From: a bacterium
Lineage (GTDB): Bacteria > Desulfobacterota_D > UBA1144
Assembly (NCBI GenBank): GCA_018654605.1
Contig: JABILG010000011.1
Span: 1 to 45,196 of the forward strand
DNA: 45,196 bases
Direction: 5' to 3'
Each line of letters begins with the position of its first letter. Position 1 is the stretch's first letter. The notes beneath the pieces were generated by a model. The model did not search any database and had not been told where the DNA came from. It was given only the letters and a program-made list of their open reading frames with translations. A program made the translations under genes and the position numbers. Shown here one piece after another: positions 35,219-45,196 of the stretch.

Positions 35219-35974
35219 ATGAAAAAGAAAATAATTATATTGTCTGGCGGTTTTGATCCTATACATTCTGGTCATATATCTATGTTTGAAGAAGCACGAG
35301 AACTTGGAAGCATTGTAGTGTTGCTAAATTCTGACGAATGGCTTATAAGAAAGAAAGGTAGCTTTTTTATGGACTGGGAAGATAGAGAATCAGTTGCAAA
35401 GAATATTTCTGGAGTTATAGATGTTCTTCATTTTAATGATGACGATGGAACGGCGGTTCAAGGTATCGTCGACGTAGCTAAAAAATATCCTAATCATGAT
35501 ATTTCATTTGCAAATGGCGGAGATAGAAACAAGCAAACAACTCCTGAAACTAAATTCTGCTCTAAAAATGGAATCAACGAAGTATTTAATGTTGGTGGAG
35601 GAAAGACTCAATCTTCTAGCAACATCTTAGACAAATGGAGGGACTCACCTATGCCCCGTCCTTGGGGAGAATGGCATTCATACAAAGAATTTGATATAGA
35701 TAATGCTAAAGCAAAATTAAAATCTTTAATTGTAAAACCTGGCCAAAAACTATCTTATCAAAAGCATAATCAAAGAAGTGAACATTGGTTTATAATAAAA
35801 GGTAATGCAACTATTGTTTTAAATGATAAAGAGTATACCGTTAAAACCTTTAAACATTTTGATATAGCAGTAAACGAATGGCATCAACTTGTAAATAACG
35901 GCTCCGAAGAACTCATAGTGGTTGAGGTTCAATACGGTAAAGCATGTGTTGAAGAGGATATAGAAAGAAAATAA
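35219..35974 (+). CDS. Nucleotidyltransferase fused to a mannose-6-phosphate-isomerase-type cupin
   Basis: Two catalytic-looking domains share one 251-residue chain. Residues 1-125 are a cytidylyltransferase-like (HIGH-superfamily) domain with SGGFDPIHSGHISM, where His16-x-x-His19 forms the HxGH nucleotide-binding motif, as in RfaE/HldE and TagD. Residues 147-245 are a cupin resembling the C-terminal domain of type II phosphomannose isomerases (RPWGEWHSYKEF, LSYQKHNQRSEHWFIIKG, EWHQLVNNGSEEL, VEVQYGKACVEEDI), with His183, His189 and His222 as likely metal ligands. The ATG at 35219 follows a TTAGGGA ribosome site; a longer TTG start at 35162 is rejected. It should isomerise and activate a sugar phosphate, but the sugar is unknown. 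GT2 follows 1 nt later. Confidence 0.85.
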   Translation: MKKKIIILSGGFDPIHSGHISMFEEARELGSIVVLLNSDEWLIRKKGSFFMDWEDRESVAKNISGVIDVLHFNDDDGTAVQGIVDVAKKYPNHDISFANGGDRNKQTTPETKFCSKNGINEVFNVGGGKTQSSSNILDKWRDSPMPRPWGEWHSYKEFDIDNAKAKLKSLIVKPGQKLSYQKHNQRSEHWFIIKGNATIVLNDKEYTVKTFKHFDIAVNEWHQLVNNGSEELIVVEVQYGKACVEEDIERK

Positions 35975-35975
35975 A

Positions 35976-36662
35976 TTGAAATCCTTAAATATTGTCATAC
36001 CTTGCTTAAAAGAAGCAGAGAATCTTAAATTCCTGCTTCCTCAAATTATCGAAATTTTAGATTCTACTAACGTTGAATATGAAATCATTATTGTTGATAG
36101 CTGTACACCTATGGATGATACCCCAGATGTATGCTCAACATTTCAGAATGTTACTTATGTAAACACCCTAGGTGTAGATAATTATGGAAGTGCTGTCAAA
36201 ACAGGAATTAAGACAATATCTAAAGAGTTCACATTGTTTATGGATGCAGATGGATCTCATAACCCTAAATTAATACCTAAGATAATGGAAAGAATCGGGG
36301 AAAACGGTATCTGCATAGCGTCTAGGTATTGTTTGGGCGGAAAAACAAACGATAAAGTCACCTCGATTTTCTTATCAAAACTTTTAAACTTTGTTTATTC
36401 ACTCATTTTAAGAATTAATTGTTCAGATTGGTCAGGCAGTTTTAAAATGTACGAGACTAAGCTGTTAAAAGGAATTAATCTCAAATCTGAAAATTTTGAT
36501 ATAATCCCCGAAATTGTATTTAAAACGACAAAATTAAACAATATAAAAGAAATAAGAGAAGTTCCGTACACCTTTGATACTAGGGTTCATGGTAAGACTA
36601 AAAGGAAACTAAAAACTTACTTAGATTTTTTTGTAACACTGCTTAAATTAAGATTCAGCTAA
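35976..36662 (+). CDS. Dpm1-like family 2 glycosyltransferase
   Basis: This 228-residue GT2 enzyme starts NIVIPCLKEAENL and has the metal-binding D90-A-D92 in LFMDADGSHNPKL. SRYCLGGKT and a GSFKMY-type acceptor motif (DWSGSFKMYETKLL) match dolichyl/polyprenyl-phosphate sugar synthases. It lacks C-terminal membrane helices, like Dpm1 itself. It likely loads a sugar onto a polyprenyl phosphate at the inner membrane for the GtrA/GT-C proteins. The start codon is TTG, 1 nt after the previous stop, with no ATG available before the conserved fold begins, so initiation depends on coupling. The end abuts gmd on the other strand. Confidence 0.85.
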   Translation: MKSLNIVIPCLKEAENLKFLLPQIIEILDSTNVEYEIIIVDSCTPMDDTPDVCSTFQNVTYVNTLGVDNYGSAVKTGIKTISKEFTLFMDADGSHNPKLIPKIMERIGENGICIASRYCLGGKTNDKVTSIFLSKLLNFVYSLILRINCSDWSGSFKMYETKLLKGINLKSENFDIIPEIVFKTTKLNNIKEIREVPYTFDTRVHGKTKRKLKTYLDFFVTLLKLRFS

Positions 36663-37673
36663 TCAATCTAAGTTAAGCTCATATTTAATCATCATTTCAG
36701 CTAACGACTCAAATTTAGTTTTAGGTTTCCAACCTAATTCTTTACTTGCTTTAGAGCAATCGCCAAGAAGCAAATCAACTTCAGCAGGCCTATAAAATTC
36801 CTTACTGCAGACAACTATCTTCTTCCCGCTATCCTTTGCAATAGCTACAGTATCTACTCCTTCTCCTATCCACTCAAAAGCAATCCCTGCATGATTTAAA
36901 GTAACCTCAACAAACTCTCTAACAGAATGGGTCTCGCCCGTTGAAACAACATAATCATCAGCTTTATCTGCTTGAAGCATTAGATGCATAGCCTCTACGT
37001 AATCACCTGCAAAACCCCAGTCTCTTTTGGCTTCTAAGTTACCAAGCACTAATTGGTCTTGCTTCCCCTTCTTAATTCTAGCTATAGCTTTAGATATCTT
37101 CTTTGTAACGAATTCATTTCCTCTCAAAGGTGATTCATGATTAAACAGTATTCCACAACAACCAAATATATTATATGATTCTCGATAATTCATAGTAATA
37201 AAATGCGAATAAACCTTGGCTACTCCATATGGGGACCTAGGGTAAAAAGGAGTCTCTTCATTTTGAGGAGTTTCCATGACCTTCCCGAACATTTCTGATG
37301 ATGATGCTTGATAAAACTTAGTTTCTGGGGAGATTGATCTTAAAGCCTCTAGTACTCTTAAAGTTCCCAACCCGGTTACTTCTGCTGTATACAAAGGAGT
37401 ATCGAAACTGGCACCAACGAAACTTTGCGCCCCAAGATTGTAAACTTCATCAGGGCTTACTGATTCTATAACATTTCTTATGTTGGTCTCTTCTAATAAT
37501 TCGAACTCTTTAATCTTAACATCCTTCTCAACACCTAAGATTTCAAGTCTTTCAGTATTATAATTAGAATTCCTTCTTGCAGCACCATAAACTTCGTATC
37601 CTTCTTTCAATAAGTGCTGCGCTAGATATGCTCCATCTTGTCCAGTAATACCTGTTATTAAAGCTTTTTTCAT
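36663..37673 (-). CDS. gmd: GDP-mannose 4,6-dehydratase
   Basis: Gmd converts GDP-mannose to GDP-4-keto-6-deoxymannose, the precursor of fucose, rhamnose, perosamine and other deoxy sugars. The 336-residue extended SDR has ALITGITGQDGAYLAQHLL with the NAD(P) glycine motif (about 7-14). The catalytic Ser126-Glu127 is in QASSSEMFGK, and Tyr149/Lys153 are in YPRSPYGVAKVYSH. SPLRGNEFVTKK and the C-terminal RPAEVDLLLGD are typical of Gmd. It is somewhat shorter than E. coli Gmd (~373). A good Shine-Dalgarno (AAAGGAG) and a TATAAT promoter precede it. No Fcl/Rmd/Per partner is certain in the window. Confidence 0.93.
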   Translation of the reverse strand: MKKALITGITGQDGAYLAQHLLKEGYEVYGAARRNSNYNTERLEILGVEKDVKIKEFELLEETNIRNVIESVSPDEVYNLGAQSFVGASFDTPLYTAEVTGLGTLRVLEALRSISPETKFYQASSSEMFGKVMETPQNEETPFYPRSPYGVAKVYSHFITMNYRESYNIFGCCGILFNHESPLRGNEFVTKKISKAIARIKKGKQDQLVLGNLEAKRDWGFAGDYVEAMHLMLQADKADDYVVSTGETHSVREFVEVTLNHAGIAFEWIGEGVDTVAIAKDSGKKIVVCSKEFYRPAEVDLLLGDCSKASKELGWKPKTKFESLAEMMIKYELNLD

Positions 37674-37695
37674 TTGGAATTCTCCTTTCCCTGAT

Positions 37696-37723
37696 ATTAT
37701 AAAGTAATAATAAAAGATTTAAA
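37696..37723 (-). promoter_or_regulatory. Promoter of gmd
   Basis: On the minus strand TTTAAA (37718-37723) and TATAAT (37696-37701) are spaced by 16 bp, with the ATG 22 nt after the -10 and AAAGGAG between. It would let gmd be expressed apart from the porin gene 67 bp upstream. Confidence 0.45.
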
Positions 37724-37740
37724 CTTAATCAATTTATACA

Positions 37741-38571
37741 TTAAAATGAGTAAAATTTATACATTGCATTAAACATTAAAGAAAATTGATTCTTAGACCC
37801 CTGCCTTTTAACAAGTTGACTATTCCCTGCATCGCCCATTAGACGATTATATCCTATATTAAGCAAACCAGTAATATTCTCACTTAAAGGAAAGACGACA
37901 TTGTTTGATAATGAAGCTTTGTATATCCCGGACTCTGGTTTATAAAATTTATACATCGCATTAGGGTCATTAAAAGCAGGGTATGGGGTCCCATACCATT
38001 CGTTCAAATAGTCACCATTTGCATAATTAAATGAAATTGAAGTCTTATTAATCAAGGGTTGATCAAAGTTTACCCATTCTATTATTTTATGATTTAATGA
38101 AAATTCGCTATCATATGAGCCACTATAAAAATCCTTCGTATCAGTGACTATTGAATATCCAAGAGAAAGTCTATATGGAAGAGAGTACTCCAAATCTAAA
38201 CCAACTTGAAAATGTGGGTCTATTTCTTCAAGACCTACTAAAGAATTGTCATCTCCATTCTGCCTTCCAAAATCATACTCACCAAATATACCTACATCGA
38301 ATTTCTGACTATCATAAAGACTTAGATTTGCATATGGTCCATAAAAATTAAATTCATTTAGAATCATTTTGCTTTTGTCCTCATATGTTAAACCGAACAT
38401 AGGAATCCACATGAACCTTCTTGAACTGGAACCATCATATGTAGGCTTTGATATAAAACCTCCGCCTGCATAAATAGATGTTTTAGGTTTAACGTCATCA
38501 CTTCCTTTTGAATAAGTCTCAAAAGTTGAGCTTATTAGTACTATTAGTAAAAAAACTATAAATTTATTCAT
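37741..38571 (-). CDS. MipA/OmpV-family outer-membrane protein
   Basis: This 276-residue beta-barrel protein has a signal peptide (MNKFIVFLLIVLISSTFETYS). The mature start TSIYAGGGFISKPTYDGSSS matches the MipA/OmpV family opening (glycine-rich strand followed by P-x-Y-x-G-S). Strands alternate hydrophobic and polar residues, and the chain ends in aromatic Phe (NAMYKFYSF), the BamA recognition signal. MipA is linked to murein synthesis scaffolding and OmpV-type porins to transport; the role here is not clear. The promoter carries two palindromes, so the gene is probably regulated by an outside repressor or activator. Confidence 0.8.
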   Translation of the reverse strand: MNKFIVFLLIVLISSTFETYSKGSDDVKPKTSIYAGGGFISKPTYDGSSSRRFMWIPMFGLTYEDKSKMILNEFNFYGPYANLSLYDSQKFDVGIFGEYDFGRQNGDDNSLVGLEEIDPHFQVGLDLEYSLPYRLSLGYSIVTDTKDFYSGSYDSEFSLNHKIIEWVNFDQPLINKTSISFNYANGDYLNEWYGTPYPAFNDPNAMYKFYKPESGIYKASLSNNVVFPLSENITGLLNIGYNRLMGDAGNSQLVKRQGSKNQFSLMFNAMYKFYSF

Positions 38572-38591
38572 GACTACCTTCCTTTTTTTTA

Positions 38592-38621
38592 ATTATAAAT
38601 CAATTTGAATAGATTATTCAA
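38592..38621 (-). promoter_or_regulatory. Promoter of the MipA/OmpV-like gene
   Basis: On the minus strand TTGAAT (38616-38621) and a perfect TATAAT (38592-38597) are spaced by 18 bp. The ATG lies 20 nt past the -10 with AAGGAAGG as ribosome site. The -35 is embedded in a palindrome, and a second palindrome adjoins it upstream. Confidence 0.6.
38605..38621. promoter_or_regulatory. Palindrome overlapping the porin promoter -35 (possible operator)
   Basis: The 17-bp sequence TTGAATA-GAT-TATTCAA is a perfect inverted repeat with 7-bp arms and a 3-bp centre. One arm contains the -35 hexamer and the other lies in the promoter spacer, so a protein bound here would block RNA polymerase. The binding protein is unknown. 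Confidence 0.5.
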
Positions 38622-38622
38622 G

Positions 38623-38638
38623 ATGAGAAATGTCTCAT
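38623..38638. promoter_or_regulatory. Second palindrome upstream of the porin promoter
   Basis: ATGAGA-AATG-TCTCAT is a perfect inverted repeat (6-bp arms, 4-bp centre), 1 bp from the -35 palindrome. No T-run follows on either strand, so it is not a terminator. A regulatory protein site or RNA hairpin is possible. Confidence 0.4.
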
Positions 38639-38673
38639 ATTGAGCATTAAAGTCAAGAGATTTGGGCGGATTA

Positions 38674-39057
38674 TTATTTATAGACAAAATATTTCATTAA
38701 TAGATACCTTAGTATCGCAGTAGGTACAAGCAATAGTGCCTGAATAAAATATAGGTTGTAATTAAGTTCATCGCAATAATAAAGCACTCCCACTCCAAGA
38801 AAATAATTAAGTGCATAAACTGCAGTAAATTTAGGTAAATTTGAATAAGACTTATTATTAAAGACGATTCTACCAAAAGTAGAGAAGTTAAACAAGAGAC
38901 CAGCAATTGTTGATATTAAAGCAGCTATCGAAAAATGGATACCTATCCACAAAAAGAAAGCAAAGATCGAATAACCAAACAAGGTATTCAACAAGCCTAC
39001 ACAAAGAAATAAAAGAAAATTCTTATTTTTATTAAACAAATCTAGAAGCTTTTCCAC
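38674..39057 (-). CDS. GtrA-family membrane protein
   Basis: GtrA-like proteins flip polyprenyl-phosphate-linked sugars across the inner membrane. This 127-residue protein has four membrane helices with the family pattern: LLFLCVGLLNTLFGYSIFAFF (helix 1), short loops, then FSTFGRIVFNNK between helices 2 and 3 and LRYLLMKYFVY at the end. It is full length. It lies 36 nt downstream of the ThDP enzyme in the same direction and upstream of the regulated porin. The natural partners would be the Dpm1-like GT2 and the GT-C-like protein. Confidence 0.88.
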   Translation of the reverse strand: MEKLLDLFNKNKNFLLFLCVGLLNTLFGYSIFAFFLWIGIHFSIAALISTIAGLLFNFSTFGRIVFNNKSYSNLPKFTAVYALNYFLGVGVLYYCDELNYNLYFIQALLLVPTAILRYLLMKYFVYK

Positions 39058-39093
39058 TATGTAAATCTTACCAAAGAAAGCGAATAAAAAAAA

Positions 39094-40854
39094 TTATTTT
39101 AAAAATTTAAGACAAACTTCTTCTTCCTCTTTTGTTAAATCTGGATACATTTTATGGAGTGGATTTGACTCCATAGAGCCTGTTCTTGTTACCCTGCTCT
39201 GTATCTTGGGAAAGTAGGTTTGATTTGGATCAACCGGAACTACGAATACAGATGGACCAATAGAATTAAAATATCTTAAAAAAGTTTTATCCGTATCAAA
39301 ATCTTTTTTTAACTTATAAGATTTAAGTCCCCACGCAAAAAACAACTTTTCCCAATTAGGAAATCCTAAGCCGCTTTCAATATCACAACCCATATATTCG
39401 CCATCAAAATAATTCTTTTGAGTCATCCTAATTGAGGCATATCCAGAATCATCAAATATAAAAGTTTTTATATTAAGGTTATTAATCATCATCGTGCCAA
39501 TTTCTTGAAGATTTTGTGAAAAACCTCCGTCTCCTTCTAAATGGATTATTCTTTTATTATTATTAGCGAATGATGCTCCAATTGCAGCCGAAAGACCATA
39601 TCCCATGGCTGCCAGACCTTTATTGGATACAATCTTTTGACCAAATTTTGGAGTAAAAGCTTGCTTAAAGGCTGTAAAAACCCCTCCACTGCTACATGGT
39701 ACAAGGACATCCTTTGGCCTTGAAATATAAGATAGCTTTTGCATTAAAAGGTAAGGTGATACATATTTATTGCTGGTTTTATTCCTCTTATCTATAAGAG
39801 GAAAATCCTTTTTTACTTTTTTGCTAAATTTAATCCATTCGGAATTAGAGCCAAGGTTCTGACGTAGTATCCGAGGTAGAAAATTGTTGACATCAAATGA
39901 ATAAGGCCATTTAACTTTTGGGTGACCTTTCTTAAGCTCTCTCATGTCTATATCGACCTGAATTATATCCCCTATAGGAATAAATTCCTTCCAATTGAAA
40001 CCTGTCTGCTGCAAACCAAGTCTTGTACCCAATGCTAAAAGCAAGTCCGACTGCTGAATAATAATATTTGCATGTCTTTGACCCCAAGTGTTAGGCATAC
40101 CAAAATAATTTTTACTTAGAGGCGAAATCCTATCCATCCCATTCCAAGTTGTAAAAATAGGAATGTCTAATTTAGAAAATTGTTTTCTCAGATCATAAGC
40201 AACATCTCGACTCACACCCCCTCCAATTAACATTGAAGGTCTTTTAGATTTTCTTAGCAGAGCAGAGATTTGATTAACCTGAGTTTTAGTAGCTATATTT
40301 AATATTTGCTTCTTTATTTTTGTAGATGTTTTAACATCCTTGAATTTAGAGGCTTGAACATCTAAGGGTATCTCAATAAAGATTGGACCTTTTCTTTCAA
40401 CAATATCTATATTTAAAATTGATTTTAATTTTTCAAAACCTATTGGCTTTTCTATTCTAAGGGCTTTTGAAGTTATAGGTGTTACTATCGATACCCCATC
40501 TATTTCTTGAATTCCTCTTTGGATAACTTCACCGTTTGCTAGGTCATCTGTCTTAACTTGTCCACCAATAATTAACAGATCTCTGCTTTCTAAGTAAGCT
40601 CCACTAATTGCGGTAACAATATTAGTCAATCCTGGTCCAGCAGTGACTAAAGCTATAGCTTTTTTATTCTTATCCGATATTTCATTAAAATATTCGGCTG
40701 CTATACCTGCAGCAACTTCGTGTATAACTGGTATGCATTTGAAATTATTTCTAAAACTGTCTAGCAAGTGCATTATGTTGCCACCAGAAACAAAGAAACA
40801 GTGTGTATAGTTTAATTTCTTTAGCCAAAGAGCCAATTGATCACTATATTTCAT
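39094..40854 (-). CDS. Thiamine-diphosphate enzyme, acetolactate-synthase-like (possibly YerE-type)
   Basis: This 586-residue ThDP-dependent enzyme has the three-domain ALS/POX fold. The catalytic Glu46 is in VIHEVAAGIAAEYF, ALVTAGPGLTNIVTAISGAY is the N-terminal signature, and the ThDP/Mg motif is in HLEGDGGFSQNLQEIGTM followed by INNLN. The start used is the ATG at 40854; an in-frame TTG at 40866 is less likely. ALS-like ThDP enzymes in O-antigen loci, such as YerE, attach two-carbon branches to keto sugars, which would fit here. The other options are a cyclitol-dione hydrolase (IolD-like) or a plain decarboxylase. No regulatory ALS small subunit is nearby, arguing against branched-chain amino-acid synthesis. 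Confidence 0.85.
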   Translation of the reverse strand: MKYSDQLALWLKKLNYTHCFFVSGGNIMHLLDSFRNNFKCIPVIHEVAAGIAAEYFNEISDKNKKAIALVTAGPGLTNIVTAISGAYLESRDLLIIGGQVKTDDLANGEVIQRGIQEIDGVSIVTPITSKALRIEKPIGFEKLKSILNIDIVERKGPIFIEIPLDVQASKFKDVKTSTKIKKQILNIATKTQVNQISALLRKSKRPSMLIGGGVSRDVAYDLRKQFSKLDIPIFTTWNGMDRISPLSKNYFGMPNTWGQRHANIIIQQSDLLLALGTRLGLQQTGFNWKEFIPIGDIIQVDIDMRELKKGHPKVKWPYSFDVNNFLPRILRQNLGSNSEWIKFSKKVKKDFPLIDKRNKTSNKYVSPYLLMQKLSYISRPKDVLVPCSSGGVFTAFKQAFTPKFGQKIVSNKGLAAMGYGLSAAIGASFANNNKRIIHLEGDGGFSQNLQEIGTMMINNLNIKTFIFDDSGYASIRMTQKNYFDGEYMGCDIESGLGFPNWEKLFFAWGLKSYKLKKDFDTDKTFLRYFNSIGPSVFVVPVDPNQTYFPKIQSRVTRTGSMESNPLHKMYPDLTKEEEEVCLKFLK

Positions 40855-40895
40855 GTTCAAAAACAATTATACACAAATTAATTTCTTTTACTTGG

Positions 40896-40924
40896 TTGTA
40901 TATTATTTTTAAAAATATTAAAAT
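40896..40924 (+). promoter_or_regulatory. Promoter of the NeuB-like gene
   Basis: On the plus strand TTGTAT (40896-40901) and TAAAAT (40919-40924) are spaced by 17 bp. Six bases separate the -10 from the ATG at 40931 and there is no Shine-Dalgarno, again the leaderless geometry. The 76-bp gap is shared with the divergent ThDP gene, for which a TATAAT is visible 11 nt before its ATG. Confidence 0.4.
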
Positions 40925-40930
40925 ATCCCT

Positions 40931-42079
40931 ATGAATATTAAAGAAAACCAGATTTTTAATAACCTATTTGTCCTTGAAATAGCAAATAACCATTGGGGCT
41001 CCTTAGAAAGAGGAATCAAAATAATAAATACATATGGAAGAATTGTTAAAGAAAATGGAGTCAGAGCAGCGATAAAGTTGCAATTTAGGGATCCCAAAAC
41101 TTTTATTCACAAAGATTACCAAGATTCTGAAGATATAAGATATATAAAAAAAACCAAGCAAACTTACATGTCCGAGAAAAATCTAAAAAAGCTTATCAAT
41201 CAAATTAAAAGAGTTGGAGCTTTGACTATGTCCACTCCTTTTGATGAAGAGTCAGTTCAAACAATTAAAGATTTTGATCTTGATTTAGTAAAGATTGCCA
41301 GCTCTGATATAACTGACTGGCCTTTAATAGAAAAAATTGGAGGTCTTAAAAAGCCTACTATTGTTTCCACTGGTGGAGCTCAAGAAGTTGACTTAGATAA
41401 TATAGTTAATTTCTTTTTCAATAGAAAGATTCCGCTAGCTCTTAATCATTGCATTTCTCTTTATCCAACAGAAGATTCCGAATTAGCTCTTAATCAAATT
41501 AAATACCTCCGGGATAGATATCCAGAAAATATTATTGGGTTTTCTTCTCATGAATATAACGATTGGTCATCCTCAATGCTTCTGTCGTATGCTATGGGAG
41601 CAAGAACTTGGGAGAGGCATGTAGATATAGACGAAGGAGATTTTGAGGTTTCAAACTATTGCTCATTACCTGAGCAAGTAGACCATTGGTTCAAATCTTA
41701 CTATAAGGCTAAGGAGATGTTAGAGGCACCAGAATATTCCAGAAGATCCATATCTAAAAGAGAAAAAGAATATCTTGACTCATTGACTAGAGGGATTTAC
41801 GCAAAGAAGAATATTAAAAAAGGCTATAAATTTACTCAAAAATCTTTTGAAAATGATTTTTACTTATCAATTCCATTAAACAAGGGTCAAATTTCATGTA
41901 ATGAAATAATAAATGATGTCACTCTTACTAGTGATATTAAAAAAGATGATATTCTTTCGATAAATCATATTGATGGGCCATATAACGAAAATAAAAAACT
42001 TAAAGCTAGAATTGAAAAAAGAGGGTATGAAAAGTCAAAGGTAGTAAACCTAGAAACCTCTATTAATAAAATCTCTTAG
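40931..42079 (+). CDS. NeuB-family synthase (sialic-acid-synthase-like)
   Basis: NeuB enzymes condense phosphoenolpyruvate with an amino sugar to give nonulosonic acids. The 382-residue protein has an N-terminal TIM barrel (about 15-285) with LEIANNHWGS, IKLQF, STPFDEESV, ALNHCISLYPT, and metal His residues in GFSSHEYND and WERHVDID. A C-terminal SAF-like domain (about 295-355, RGIYAKKNIKKGYKFT) follows. Several usual NeuB strings are altered (EIANNHWGS for EIGxNHNGS, GFSSHE for GYSDHT). The substrate may therefore not be an N-acetylmannosamine. No CMP-sialic acid synthetase (NeuA) is present. It overlaps the FGGY gene by 30 nt tail to tail. Confidence 0.85.
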   Translation: MNIKENQIFNNLFVLEIANNHWGSLERGIKIINTYGRIVKENGVRAAIKLQFRDPKTFIHKDYQDSEDIRYIKKTKQTYMSEKNLKKLINQIKRVGALTMSTPFDEESVQTIKDFDLDLVKIASSDITDWPLIEKIGGLKKPTIVSTGGAQEVDLDNIVNFFFNRKIPLALNHCISLYPTEDSELALNQIKYLRDRYPENIIGFSSHEYNDWSSSMLLSYAMGARTWERHVDIDEGDFEVSNYCSLPEQVDHWFKSYYKAKEMLEAPEYSRRSISKREKEYLDSLTRGIYAKKNIKKGYKFTQKSFENDFYLSIPLNKGQISCNEIINDVTLTSDIKKDDILSINHIDGPYNENKKLKARIEKRGYEKSKVVNLETSINKIS

Positions 42080-43342
42080 TCCTATTAAAGTTAAGTCATG
42101 CTCATTTTTTTTAATTCTTACTTTCCTTTTCATTTTCTTTTCTATAATATCCGCAATAACTGGAACTTTATTAGGAATTCCACCACCCAATATGATTCTA
42201 GAGTTTTTACTTATTGAATCTTCCAGATAAGACAAATATTGGTTACAAAAAGATATCATCAAGGATGCAAGAAGGACTTTGGGTGTGATTCTAGAATTGC
42301 TAGAGGTTAAATCATCAATTTGTTCAAAATATTCACTTTCAGAATCTAAGTATAAATCAAACTTAATATCTATATTAAATCCTTCTAAATCTTCATAAGT
42401 TAATTGAGATAGCTCTTTCCAGAAATTATTATTTGAATTCAAAGTATCATAGAATTTGCACCATGAATTTAAGAATCTTCCTGCGGGTATATGTGTTACA
42501 CATTTTAATTTTTCATTATTAAAAAAGGGCCTTTCTTCTAATCCAAAGGTAGAATTATTTCTAGAATTAGAAATAATTTGTGATCCAGTTCCAATATTTA
42601 TAAGTATTTCATTTTGGGCTAGATTTGATCCAAGAAAAGCTGCTTGCAAGTCTCCAAAACCCAAATATAGGTTATATTGATTACTTTTATAAGCAATAAA
42701 GCCTAGGGGCTTTTGATAGTCATCGATCGGACTCGGAAAAGAAATTGGCAAATCAATTCCTGTTATATCCAACGTGTCTTCTTTTGCACCTAAATCTGTA
42801 TAAAAACCACTTGAGTGCAGAAGTGTTTTACACGCCAAATTATAATGGTCCCCTAGTTCGCGGCATATAAGCTGAGGTAAAGTCAAAAAGGTACTATTAG
42901 TTCCTAATTCATTATTTAAAGACCTTGCTAAGATGTTAACTACTGGAAGTCCAGCCCTTGAAATCATTCTTGTTTTGCTGTAAAACCCACGATTATTAAG
43001 TATCTCTAACGCACTATCTGTTGATTTTTCTTTAAATCTCCAGCTATAATAAAATGTGCTATTAAAACTATCTTGTTCAAGCAAGCAAAAACCATGCATT
43101 TCAGAGCACAAATAGATTTTGAGATCACAATCTTTTCTTAAAATAGAGATTTTATCTGAGTAATAGTCTAAATGTAAGATTAAGGATTTGGAGAAAAAAG
43201 AACCAGGAATTTTGCTGTAGTTTCCATATTTTATAAATGATCCTGCAGATTCAAATAAAGCAATAGGTTGATCATCGATAGAATTATAAAGTATCGATTT
43301 AATTCTAGAAGCACCATAATCGATTAATAAAACTTGTGACAT
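42050..43342 (-). CDS. FGGY carbohydrate kinase, sedoheptulokinase-like
   Basis: This 430-residue FGGY-family kinase has the N-terminal ATP site LLIDYGASRIKSILYN, CSEMHGFCLLE (80-90), catalytic Asp231 in LGFGDLQAAFLG, INIGTGSQIISNS (phosphate loop), and the C-terminal ATP motif ILGGGIPNKVP. The SEMHG and GDLQ segments resemble sedoheptulokinase (SHPK/CARKL-type) more than glycerol or xylulose kinases, but this is by-eye resemblance. It overlaps the cyclase gene upstream by 1 nt, so kinase and cyclase are coupled. A product of sedoheptulose-7-phosphate would suit a sugar-phosphate cyclase or a heptose branch. Confidence 0.8.
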   Translation of the reverse strand: MSQVLLIDYGASRIKSILYNSIDDQPIALFESAGSFIKYGNYSKIPGSFFSKSLILHLDYYSDKISILRKDCDLKIYLCSEMHGFCLLEQDSFNSTFYYSWRFKEKSTDSALEILNNRGFYSKTRMISRAGLPVVNILARSLNNELGTNSTFLTLPQLICRELGDHYNLACKTLLHSSGFYTDLGAKEDTLDITGIDLPISFPSPIDDYQKPLGFIAYKSNQYNLYLGFGDLQAAFLGSNLAQNEILINIGTGSQIISNSRNNSTFGLEERPFFNNEKLKCVTHIPAGRFLNSWCKFYDTLNSNNNFWKELSQLTYEDLEGFNIDIKFDLYLDSESEYFEQIDDLTSSNSRITPKVLLASLMISFCNQYLSYLEDSISKNSRIILGGGIPNKVPVIADIIEKKMKRKVRIKKNEHDLTLIGLRDFINRGF

Positions 43343-44490
43343 TACAACTCTTTCAAAAGTAATTGAACGGAATGATTTATAATTTTAGTTGAAGTTTGAC
43401 TTAAGTTTAGTTTACAAAAATTTATATAGCCTATTTTTGTTGGAACAGCTATTTTGAGGATTTTGCCTTGTGCCTTTTTATCGTTAATTAAATAATCATT
43501 AACAGTGGATAAGTTAATATTAGATAGTTTTTTTATAAATCTAGGCAACAATAACTTTTTCGCTAAATCTAATATATGTTTATCTGAGTCTTTGCTTAAG
43601 CCAAATTTCTTTAAAGAAATCTTATTCTCGATTAACAAGCCAATAGTTATGGCGGTACCATGAGGAATATAAAATTTAGACATGGGTTCGATTGCATTCC
43701 CGAGGCTATGTCCATAATTTAAAGATCTCCTTTCATTGTTCTCAAACTCGTCATTCTCGATAACAGATTTCTTTATTAAAAGAGATGTTAATATAATTCT
43801 AGTTAATGCAGAACGATCCATTTGAATGGCTTTGTCTATGTTAGTAGAGAAACTTTCTAAAGACTTTCTTCCACCAATAATGGACAATTTTAATGATTCA
43901 CCTAACCCAGATAAGACATCCTTTTTAGGAAGAGTAGTAAGAAATTCTGTATTCAGTATTACTTTGTGTGGAGAAGAAAAAAGAGCATATAGATTTTTAA
44001 TATTCTTATAATTTAAAGCTGTCTTACCACCAATACAGCTATCTGTCATAGATAAAAGAGTTGTAGGAAAATATATCCACTTAATCCCTCTCTTGTAAAT
44101 TGAACATGAAAATGCTCCGATATCTTGCACTATTCCTCCACCTACTACAATCACAGTAGAAGATTTTGTTATATTATTTTTTTCTAAAAAAGTTGTAAAT
44201 TTAATACATTCATTAATATTTTTTTTATTTTCTTTAGCAACGAACTTATAAATTAATAGACTCTTTTTTTTAATCTTAGAACCATAAATCTTATATATAT
44301 TGGAGTCTATCAATAAAACCGGGGTCTGTGAAATAGAAATTATCTTATTAATACTTTTTTCGACTGATTCACCAATAAGACTTAATTCATAGTCCTTAGG
44401 CGAAGAATGAATTTTAAGCTTTTTTATTACTTTTTTAGTATTATCAATCTCAAAATTAAACTTATTTCCGTCAATAAAAAAAGATTGCAT
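43342..44490 (-). CDS. 3-dehydroquinate-synthase-like sugar-phosphate cyclase
   Basis: This is a member of the DHQS/EEVS/DOIS sugar-phosphate cyclase family, 382 residues. NAD and active-site strings are VVGGGIVQDIGAF, TTLLSMTDSCIGGKT (Lys156), KNLYALFSSP, Glu198/Lys201 in SGLGESLK, and Zn ligands His261 and His277. It retains Lys240, Arg254 and Asn258, which in true DHQS contact the substrate carboxylate and phosphate. The normally invariant second His of GHxxGHAxE is Asn265 (GHSLGNAIE). Coupled to the FGGY kinase and adjacent to the SDR, it probably serves the glycan locus rather than the shikimate pathway, although a plain AroB role cannot be excluded. Confidence 0.82.
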   Translation of the reverse strand: MQSFFIDGNKFNFEIDNTKKVIKKLKIHSSPKDYELSLIGESVEKSINKIISISQTPVLLIDSNIYKIYGSKIKKKSLLIYKFVAKENKKNINECIKFTTFLEKNNITKSSTVIVVGGGIVQDIGAFSCSIYKRGIKWIYFPTTLLSMTDSCIGGKTALNYKNIKNLYALFSSPHKVILNTEFLTTLPKKDVLSGLGESLKLSIIGGRKSLESFSTNIDKAIQMDRSALTRIILTSLLIKKSVIENDEFENNERRSLNYGHSLGNAIEPMSKFYIPHGTAITIGLLIENKISLKKFGLSKDSDKHILDLAKKLLLPRFIKKLSNINLSTVNDYLINDKKAQGKILKIAVPTKIGYINFCKLNLSQTSTKIINHSVQLLLKEL

Positions 44491-45171
44491 TTAATCTTCC
44501 CAGAACCCACCAGCAGTAAGACCACCATCTATTACCAACTCTTGACCAGTTATATAAGATGACTTTGAAGACAATAAGAACATTACTGCTTCGGCAATAT
44601 CTTTCGACTTCCCCAGCCTTCCTGCGGGTATCTTCTTAATTATCTTACTTAAAGAATTATTTGAATTATTATTTCTTGTCATCTTTGTATCTATAAACCC
44701 AGGAGCAATGCTGTTTACTCGTATTCGATAAGTTCCGAGTTCTATGGCAAGATTTTTCATAGCACCATTTAGAAAATGTTTAGAGCTCGAATATAGGAAT
44801 CTTTTATCCCTTCCAAAAGAACCAAATAGAGATGAAATAATAATAATTGAGGAATTACTATTTGTTGGCATTTTGCTTATTAGGTTTTTTAAAATAAAGA
44901 CAAATGACTTAAAATTTACATCATAAGAATAATCAAAGTCTTTGTCTTTTAAATTTAAAAACTTTTTAGGAGTATTTGTTGCAGCTACAAAAATTATTGA
45001 ATTAAATTTTTTATTATTTTTTAATAAGAAATTATCTACCGATTCCTTAGATGACAAATCTAAAGTACTAGATGTAGTGCCAGTAACAACATAACCTTCT
45101 TTCTTTAAATAGGTCTTAATTGTGGCCCCAATATCACTTTTTTCCCCAATTAATAATGCACTTTTAGCCAT
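44491..45171 (-). CDS. Short-chain dehydrogenase/reductase of the glycan locus
   Basis: This SDR of about 226 residues starts at the ATG at 45171; a TTG at 45177 is an alternative. It has the N-terminal LLIGEKSDIGATI (a weaker G-x3-G-x-G than usual), a catalytic Ser in IIIISSLFGSFG, Tyr and Lys in YSSSKHF, and the C-terminal SAPGFIDTKM and GQELVIDGGL. It abuts the cyclase gene with no gap, forming SDR-cyclase-kinase as one transcription unit. It could reduce or oxidise the cyclised product or the keto sugar. The upstream end of the unit lies at the window edge, so further genes may precede it. Confidence 0.85.
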   Translation of the reverse strand: MAKSALLIGEKSDIGATIKTYLKKEGYVVTGTTSSTLDLSSKESVDNFLLKNNKKFNSIIFVAATNTPKKFLNLKDKDFDYSYDVNFKSFVFILKNLISKMPTNSNSSIIIISSLFGSFGRDKRFLYSSSKHFLNGAMKNLAIELGTYRIRVNSIAPGFIDTKMTRNNNSNNSLSKIIKKIPAGRLGKSKDIAEAVMFLLSSKSSYITGQELVIDGGLTAGGFWED

Positions 45172-45196
45172 GCTCAAAACTCACTATATCTTAAAT

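Follow-up and report, generated by a model that had tools for sequence, protein, structure and literature searches.

What is built by the group of genes at positions 35219–45171 of the window, the 45,196-base stretch that makes up the whole of contig C18 (JABILG010000011.1) in a draft genome of 1.02 Mb and 92% completeness? An initial annotation, made from the letters alone, read them as a possible pathway to an unusual activated sugar in a surface-glycan locus; all of the genes named are intact open reading frames at the positions given, and the remark that the set as a whole matches no known pathway also stands, with no library naming the complete set. We find that five of them, encoding a short-chain dehydrogenase/reductase (SDR), a cyclase resembling 3-dehydroquinate synthase (DHQS), an FGGY-type kinase, a NeuB-like synthase and a thiamin diphosphate (ThDP) enzyme, form one module that recurs in distant phyla. 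Most likely this five-gene set builds an unusual branched surface sugar, which probably bears a ring.

The co-occurrence in other genomes to which the initial annotation looked is borne out both near and far, the relatives keeping the set and the core recurring across phyla. The block of SDR, cyclase, kinase and NeuB genes is kept at 96–99% identity in the relative G003 and at 60–79% in G002, and the module is present in G009, a member of another genus, at 36–55% identity and in a different gene order. Of 14 genomes of the family, four have NeuB, and these same four are the ones with the module cyclase. The set is thus patchily distributed and seems to have been transferred. For distant sampling we used the NeuB protein as the sole query against 84,980 species genomes, took the best 80 loci, which cover Proteobacteria, Bacteroidetes, Cyanobacteria, Actinobacteria and others, and counted neighbours within 10 kb. 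A ThDP gene lies near NeuB in 73 of these 80 loci, together with genes of the cytidine diphosphate (CDP)-glucose-dehydratase type (65 loci), the DegT aminotransferase/RfbH type (57), NTP-transferases (50) and haloacid dehalogenase (HAD) phosphatases (40). The cyclase is present in 11 of the 80 and the kinase in ten, never without the cyclase; the eleventh locus with cyclase and NeuB, which has no kinase, is a cut contig of 5 kb. None of the 69 NeuB loci that lack the cyclase has a kinase, and 63 loci with both NeuB and ThDP genes lack the cyclase. The cassette was not found among viral contigs and plasmids.

An independent sampling by cyclase profile, in which 399 Proteobacteria and 244 Cyanobacteria yielded 14 genomes, shows a second arrangement. 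In the regions fetched, the SDR lies directly upstream of the cyclase everywhere except at one orphan cyclase (L132), and seven loci (L137 and L147–L152) carry an HpcH-type aldolase, the SDR and the cyclase in that order, close to a ThDP gene; NeuB and the kinase are both lacking there, and the aldolase type was assigned by a PF03328 match in three of the seven and by profile in the others. The kinase is present in 10 of 11 cyclase loci with NeuB and in none of the seven with HpcH (Fisher p = 2.5e-4, uncorrected for descent). Three other loci (L133, L135 and L136) combine a cyclase of the TIGR04425 type with an SDR and a Gfo/Idh oxidoreductase and are without ThDP, NeuB and HpcH genes; L133 and L136 add an SIS (GmhA-like) isomerase, L135 and L136 add a 2-hydroxyacid dehydrogenase, and judged by this gene content they represent a further, different pathway. 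At L153 (G1064:C8) there is an SDR-cyclase-kinase group with NeuB and ThDP genes absent within 10 kb, and the cyclase is in two pieces in the assembly.

The metal ligands and lysines of the NeuB-like protein are conserved throughout the 85 sequences aligned, and the subfamily is 51–80% identical across the 80 loci, whereas ordinary plasmid-borne NeuB/PseI proteins are only about 26% identical. The ThDP enzyme, which the initial annotation likened to acetolactate synthase, is nearer to JanthE, its best solved match (8rph; 262 bits versus 199 for the best acetolactate synthase). JanthE, which is YerE-like, joins alpha-keto acids to ketones (PMC12247030, PMC12188165), cyclic ketones among them (PMC12247030), and its physiological substrates had not been identified (PMC12188165). 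In the tree of ThDP enzymes the cyclase is paired with several separate lineages. The window's genus and that of G009 belong to the same family, yet their cassette ThDP genes (39094–40854 versus L025:4318–5763) fall in two deep clades of the tree; one ThDP gene has been exchanged for a non-orthologous one while the cassette around it is conserved.

The cyclase is not the shikimate DHQS. The initial annotation had raised the possibility that it is the sole such enzyme of the genome, but a second DHQS, 31% identical to it, is encoded at C2:20561–21631, and we take this to be the genome's AroB. The window cyclase scores 289 bits with TIGR04425 (cut-off 400), an AroB-related family described as a putative cyclizing sugar phosphate phospholyase, and 260 bits with AroB (cut-off 305), under both thresholds; true TIGR04425 members score 420–473 bits, and every tested cyclase of the kinase-linked clade falls below 400. 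A TIGR04425 search of the phylum at 1e-90 accordingly found nothing, because cyclases of the kinase clade score lower. The tree has three parts, namely AroB, a TIGR04425 side to which the HpcH and SIS types belong, and the kinase side. The two latter clades are sisters, sharing the SDR-cyclase pair and differing from AroB by the same substitutions (QD, DSC and NYGH), but loci of the kinase clade carry the kinase and NeuB in place of an aldolase or SIS isomerase.

With AroB itself the cyclase shares the fold and, H275 apart, the metal- and substrate-binding residues, although it lies in a separate clade and is unlinked to shikimate genes. The AlphaFold model, which has a predicted local distance difference test (pLDDT) score of 91, has DHQS as its closest solved folds, and among solved cyclases the sequence matches are strongest to DHQS (140 bits), followed by 2-deoxy-scyllo-inosose synthase (DOIS; 81 bits) and the 2-epi-5-epi-valiolone synthase (EEVS) ValA (72 bits). 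The DHQS residues D146, K152, K161, N162, E194, K197, K250, E260, R264, N268, H271, H287 and K356 are retained, whereas H275 is an asparagine in the window's genus; this numbering is what we take to be that of the Aspergillus nidulans enzyme, placed by motif, and the alignments agree with the placement. The orphan L132 (G067:C24:18537–19643), from a Coxiellaceae draft genome, is a kinase-clade cyclase that stands apart from any SDR, kinase, NeuB or ThDP gene. In that genome chorismate synthase is present and another AroB was not detected, and the cyclase may perhaps have taken over the shikimate step, because its motif, RAALNLGHT, is more AroB-like. Streptomyces plasmid genes of the DHQS family were uninformative for the module.

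The kinase is divergent. Queried alone, the window protein matches nothing in Pfam, NCBIfam or the PDB sequences, but the profile of its family matches the gluconate/xylulose kinase 3gbt (8e-17), FGGY_N is matched by five of the 11 family members, and a structural model (pLDDT 85) matches 3gbt along its full length (Foldseek E 3e-17). Its closest solved relatives are gluconate/xylulose and glycerol kinases and not sedoheptulokinase, which the initial annotation had proposed; by profile and fold, then, it is an FGGY kinase, not specifically a sedoheptulokinase.

Genes for a suitable acceptor are also at hand. The host encodes RfbF and RfbG, both above cut-off, on contig C13 and not on the contig of the cassette; in G002 and G003 RfbF and the cassette share a contig and lie about 20 kb apart, with an RfbG-type gene next to RfbF, and G009 has a true RfbH alongside RfbF and RfbG. 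Given RfbF and RfbG in the host, and RfbF on one contig with the cassette in these two relatives, CDP-4-keto-6-deoxyglucose is the likeliest acceptor.

The computations show which genes co-occur and adjoin one another, to which families they belong and that genes for CDP sugars are present; from these we infer substrates, order and product. Our reading, held tentatively and at close to an even chance of being right in its steps, is that the five genes are one pathway to a branched, carbocycle-bearing higher surface sugar. Judged by its family and active site, the NeuB-like enzyme would condense an aldose with phosphoenolpyruvate (PEP), yielding a 2-keto-3-deoxy acid. The ThDP enzyme would decarboxylate this keto acid and add the acyl anion to the C4 ketone of the CDP-4-keto-6-deoxyhexose from RfbF and RfbG, and the known chemistry of YerE, ErwE and JanthE suggests that the product would be a tertiary alcohol bearing a long polyhydroxy-ketone branch. 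Either before or after this step, the kinase would phosphorylate the terminal hydroxyl of the branch, as its strict linkage to the cyclase suggests; the cyclase, from its fold and conserved residues, would then eliminate the phosphate and close the chain onto the ketone to form a cyclohexane-type ring, and the SDR would reduce the ring ketone. The order NeuB, ThDP enzyme (with the kinase before or after it), cyclase and SDR is the most economical linear one. Afterwards the GT2 and GtrA proteins may transfer the sugar on a polyprenyl carrier. The initial annotation had a heptose or ulosonic phosphate being cyclised or extended; the ulosonic acid survives in this scheme, refined to a donor for YerE-type branching whose phosphorylated chain is then cyclised, and that branching, named there in passing, now stands at the centre of the pathway.

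The variant loci can be read in the same way, with the HpcH aldolase in place of NeuB as the predicted maker of the 2-keto-3-deoxy acid. HpcH aldolases and NeuB both yield such acids, and an HpcH aldolase can start from a phosphorylated aldehyde, which NeuB as a rule does not use; HpcH directly, and NeuB by way of the kinase, can therefore both give the omega-phosphorylated 3-deoxy-2-keto chain that a DHQS-type cyclase needs. In caryophyllose the deoxy position adjoins the branch point, which would fit an origin in a PEP or pyruvate aldol reaction. As for the donors, ErwE, of erwiniose synthesis, prefers long hydroxylated alpha-keto acids, MMAR_2332, of caryophyllose synthesis, is similar, and 4-hydroxy-2-oxo acids, the products of HpcH, are of the kind that ErwE prefers (PMC12247030).

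Several observations weigh against this scheme. The contrast in kinase content, with kinase and NeuB on one side and the aldolase on the other, tracks two clades of the cyclase, and it represents few independent events because the cyclase tree splits into an HpcH/SIS side and a kinase side. The host RfbH-like protein scores 311 bits against a cut-off of 423, and the adjacent gmd gene could supply a different 4-keto sugar. There is no HAD phosphatase in the window locus, as compared with about half of the NeuB loci. At the catalytic site, H275 of DHQS is an asparagine in the window's genus only (three genomes) and a histidine in all other module cyclases. K250 and R264, which hold the carboxylate in DHQS, are unchanged, yet if the cyclase acts after the ThDP enzyme, its substrate would carry a sugar where 3-deoxy-D-arabino-heptulosonate 7-phosphate (DAHP) has its carboxylate.

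This last point leads to the main alternative, that the free ulosonic acid is phosphorylated by the kinase and then turned by the cyclase into a dehydroquinate-like carbocyclic acid, which the SDR reduces and which is attached to the glycan, while in a separate reaction the ThDP enzyme adds a small donor such as pyruvate to the CDP sugar or to the cyclic ketone. It would account for the unchanged DHQS residues (K250, R264 and N268 included), for a cyclase whose fold and sequence are closest to DHQS and not to DOIS or EEVS, and for a kinase that is tied to NeuB, both being gone where the aldolase is present; but it uses up the keto acid that NeuB provides in the 63 NeuB and ThDP loci without a cyclase and leaves the carbocycle unlinked to the CDP sugar, and we consider it unlikely, though not negligible. 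More doubtful is a gathering of two unrelated pathways by a surface-glycan island, NeuB and the ThDP enzyme making a plain branched sugar and the SDR, cyclase and kinase something else. The SDR-cyclase pairs without ThDP, NeuB or HpcH genes (L133–L136) and the SDR-cyclase-kinase group without NeuB at L153 speak for such a division, whereas the kinase-type cyclase meets NeuB and ThDP genes of several lineages in distant phyla, and NeuB loci that lack the cyclase never hold the kinase.

We think it improbable that the product of the kinase is sedoheptulose 7-phosphate, or some other ketose phosphate, from which the cyclase forms a C7 cyclitol ketone that serves as the ThDP acceptor for a donor made by NeuB. 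The FGGY family does include sedoheptulokinase, and the acceptance of cyclic ketones by JanthE (PMC12247030) would suit this route; against it, the absence of the kinase wherever HpcH replaces NeuB is left unexplained, the cyclase is nearer DHQS than EEVS, and the closest kinase structure is a gluconate/xylulose kinase. An ordinary locus for a nonulosonic acid of the sialic, legionaminic or pseudaminic type is very improbable in spite of the NeuB-family enzyme, as that enzyme is distant from ordinary plasmid PseI/NeuB (26% identity), the window genes scanned include no NeuA-type cytidine monophosphate (CMP) transferase (two weak PF02348 matches lie elsewhere in the genome) and they include no NeuC-type or LegC/PseC gene.

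Returning to the branched and ring-bearing sugar, its nearest relatives among known systems are the YerE-type branched-sugar syntheses (of yersiniose A, erwiniose and caryophyllose), a group whose enzymes include YerE, ErwE, MMAR_2332 and JanthE. The module resembles them in its YerE-like ThDP carboligase and in having CDP-4-keto-6-deoxyhexose genes in the same genome, and beside the ThDP gene in most homologous loci; it differs in adding a NeuB-type synthase, the probable source of the donor, an FGGY kinase, a DHQS-like cyclase and an SDR. Nonulosonic synthesis by NeuB/PseI shares a PEP-condensing enzyme with conserved metal ligands, but the subfamily here is distinct and its partner is a ThDP enzyme instead of NeuA. 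More than 200 YerE-like enzymes have been noted in silico (PMC12247030). Our literature search, with most subscription papers outside its scope, found no description of NeuB as a donor source or of a kinase-cyclase-SDR module, and nothing published about TIGR04425 or a gene set of this kind; YerE-like enzymes are already known to carry out branching, and the NeuB donor source and the kinase-cyclase-SDR module are probably the new parts.

The nearest known product class is, by analogy, bradyrhizose, a bicyclic ten-carbon sugar of the O-antigen of photosynthetic Bradyrhizobium, whose genes were unknown in 2016 and were assumed to lie in an operon of 11 genes that includes a glucose 4,6-dehydratase (PMC4743980), and in which hydroxyls 4, 5 and 9 can take part in ring closure (PMC9912281). 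It too is carbocyclic, and the Afipia cassette L066 is similar in size to that operon and has a gene of the glucose 4,6-dehydratase type; a search for the cyclase in 399 genomes of the Afipia family found it in the query genome only, and we regard the connection as a lead. It is possible, although we would not count on it, that the module puts DHQS-type ring closure with phosphate elimination to a new use, by applying it to the side chain of a branched sugar bound to a nucleotide, and that it is a portable means, in Prochlorococcus, Proteobacteria and other phyla, of making carbocycle-bearing surface sugars, perhaps of the bradyrhizose class. The scheme suggests physiological roles for JanthE-like carboligases and for the sister clade of a cyclase family that NCBI labels only as 'putative', proposes NeuB or HpcH as the origin of the long keto-acid donors of branched sugars, and provides a gene signature for carbocyclic glycans.

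The coupling of cyclase and kinase described by the initial annotation is confirmed by a stop-to-start junction, and all three minus-strand genes, for SDR, cyclase and kinase, abut in this manner (TAAATG, TAATG), with the end of the contig just past the SDR. The NeuB-like gene is convergent with the kinase gene and overlaps it by 30 bases (42050–42079); in G002 the same pair has no overlap.

Table. Features of the glycan locus in the window, with coordinates, strands and the basis of assignment
Feature	Position	Strand	Remarks
SDR reductase	44491–45171	-	ATG at 45171 (TTG at 45177 possible); Ser-Tyr-Lys and GxxxDIG motifs; directly upstream of cyclase in nearly all cyclase loci
DHQS-like sugar phosphate cyclase	43342–44490	-	kinase clade (KIN), sister to TIGR04425, not AroB; by scores, residues, tree and fold
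Divergent FGGY-type sugar kinase	42050–43342	-	by family profile and fold; translationally coupled to cyclase
NeuB-subfamily PEP-condensing synthase	40931–42079	+	SAF-like C-terminus; metal and active-site residues kept
YerE/JanthE-like ThDP carboligase	39094–40854	-	GDG motif, catalytic Glu
GtrA-like flippase	38674–39057	-	probably for lipid-linked sugar
MipA	37741–38571	-	absent from the gene list of the initial annotation
GDP-mannose 4,6-dehydratase (gmd)	36663–37673	-	TIGR01472 above cut-off; neighbour outside conserved module
GT2 glycosyltransferase	35976–36662	+	by similarity of the polyprenyl-phosphate type; a few cassette loci (L069, L101, L063) carry homologues
Nucleotidyltransferase-cupin fusion	35219–35974	+	neighbour outside conserved module

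The fusion protein, an HldE/glycerol-3-phosphate-cytidylyltransferase-like domain joined to a ManC-type cupin, had been assigned the activation of the sugar, and gmd had been counted as a member of the set. In the 94 loci searched, the fusion is carried elsewhere only by the same-genus locus L026, it and MipA are restricted to the window's genus apart from weak partial matches, and strong gmd matches are found in only two further loci; on their absence from nearly all other loci we reject all three as parts of the pathway, and neither assignment is supported. Elsewhere in the window the parts scanned hold mostly housekeeping genes, for outer-membrane protein assembly, a tRNA synthetase, DNA ligase, RelA/SpoT, CdsA and BacA. 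We also note that L088 and L091, which carry the glycan locus, are metagenome-assembled genomes labelled Bifidobacterium breve; the L091 ThDP gene closely resembles those of Actinomycetota metagenome-assembled genomes (L071 and L076), and by sequence the two labels look wrong.

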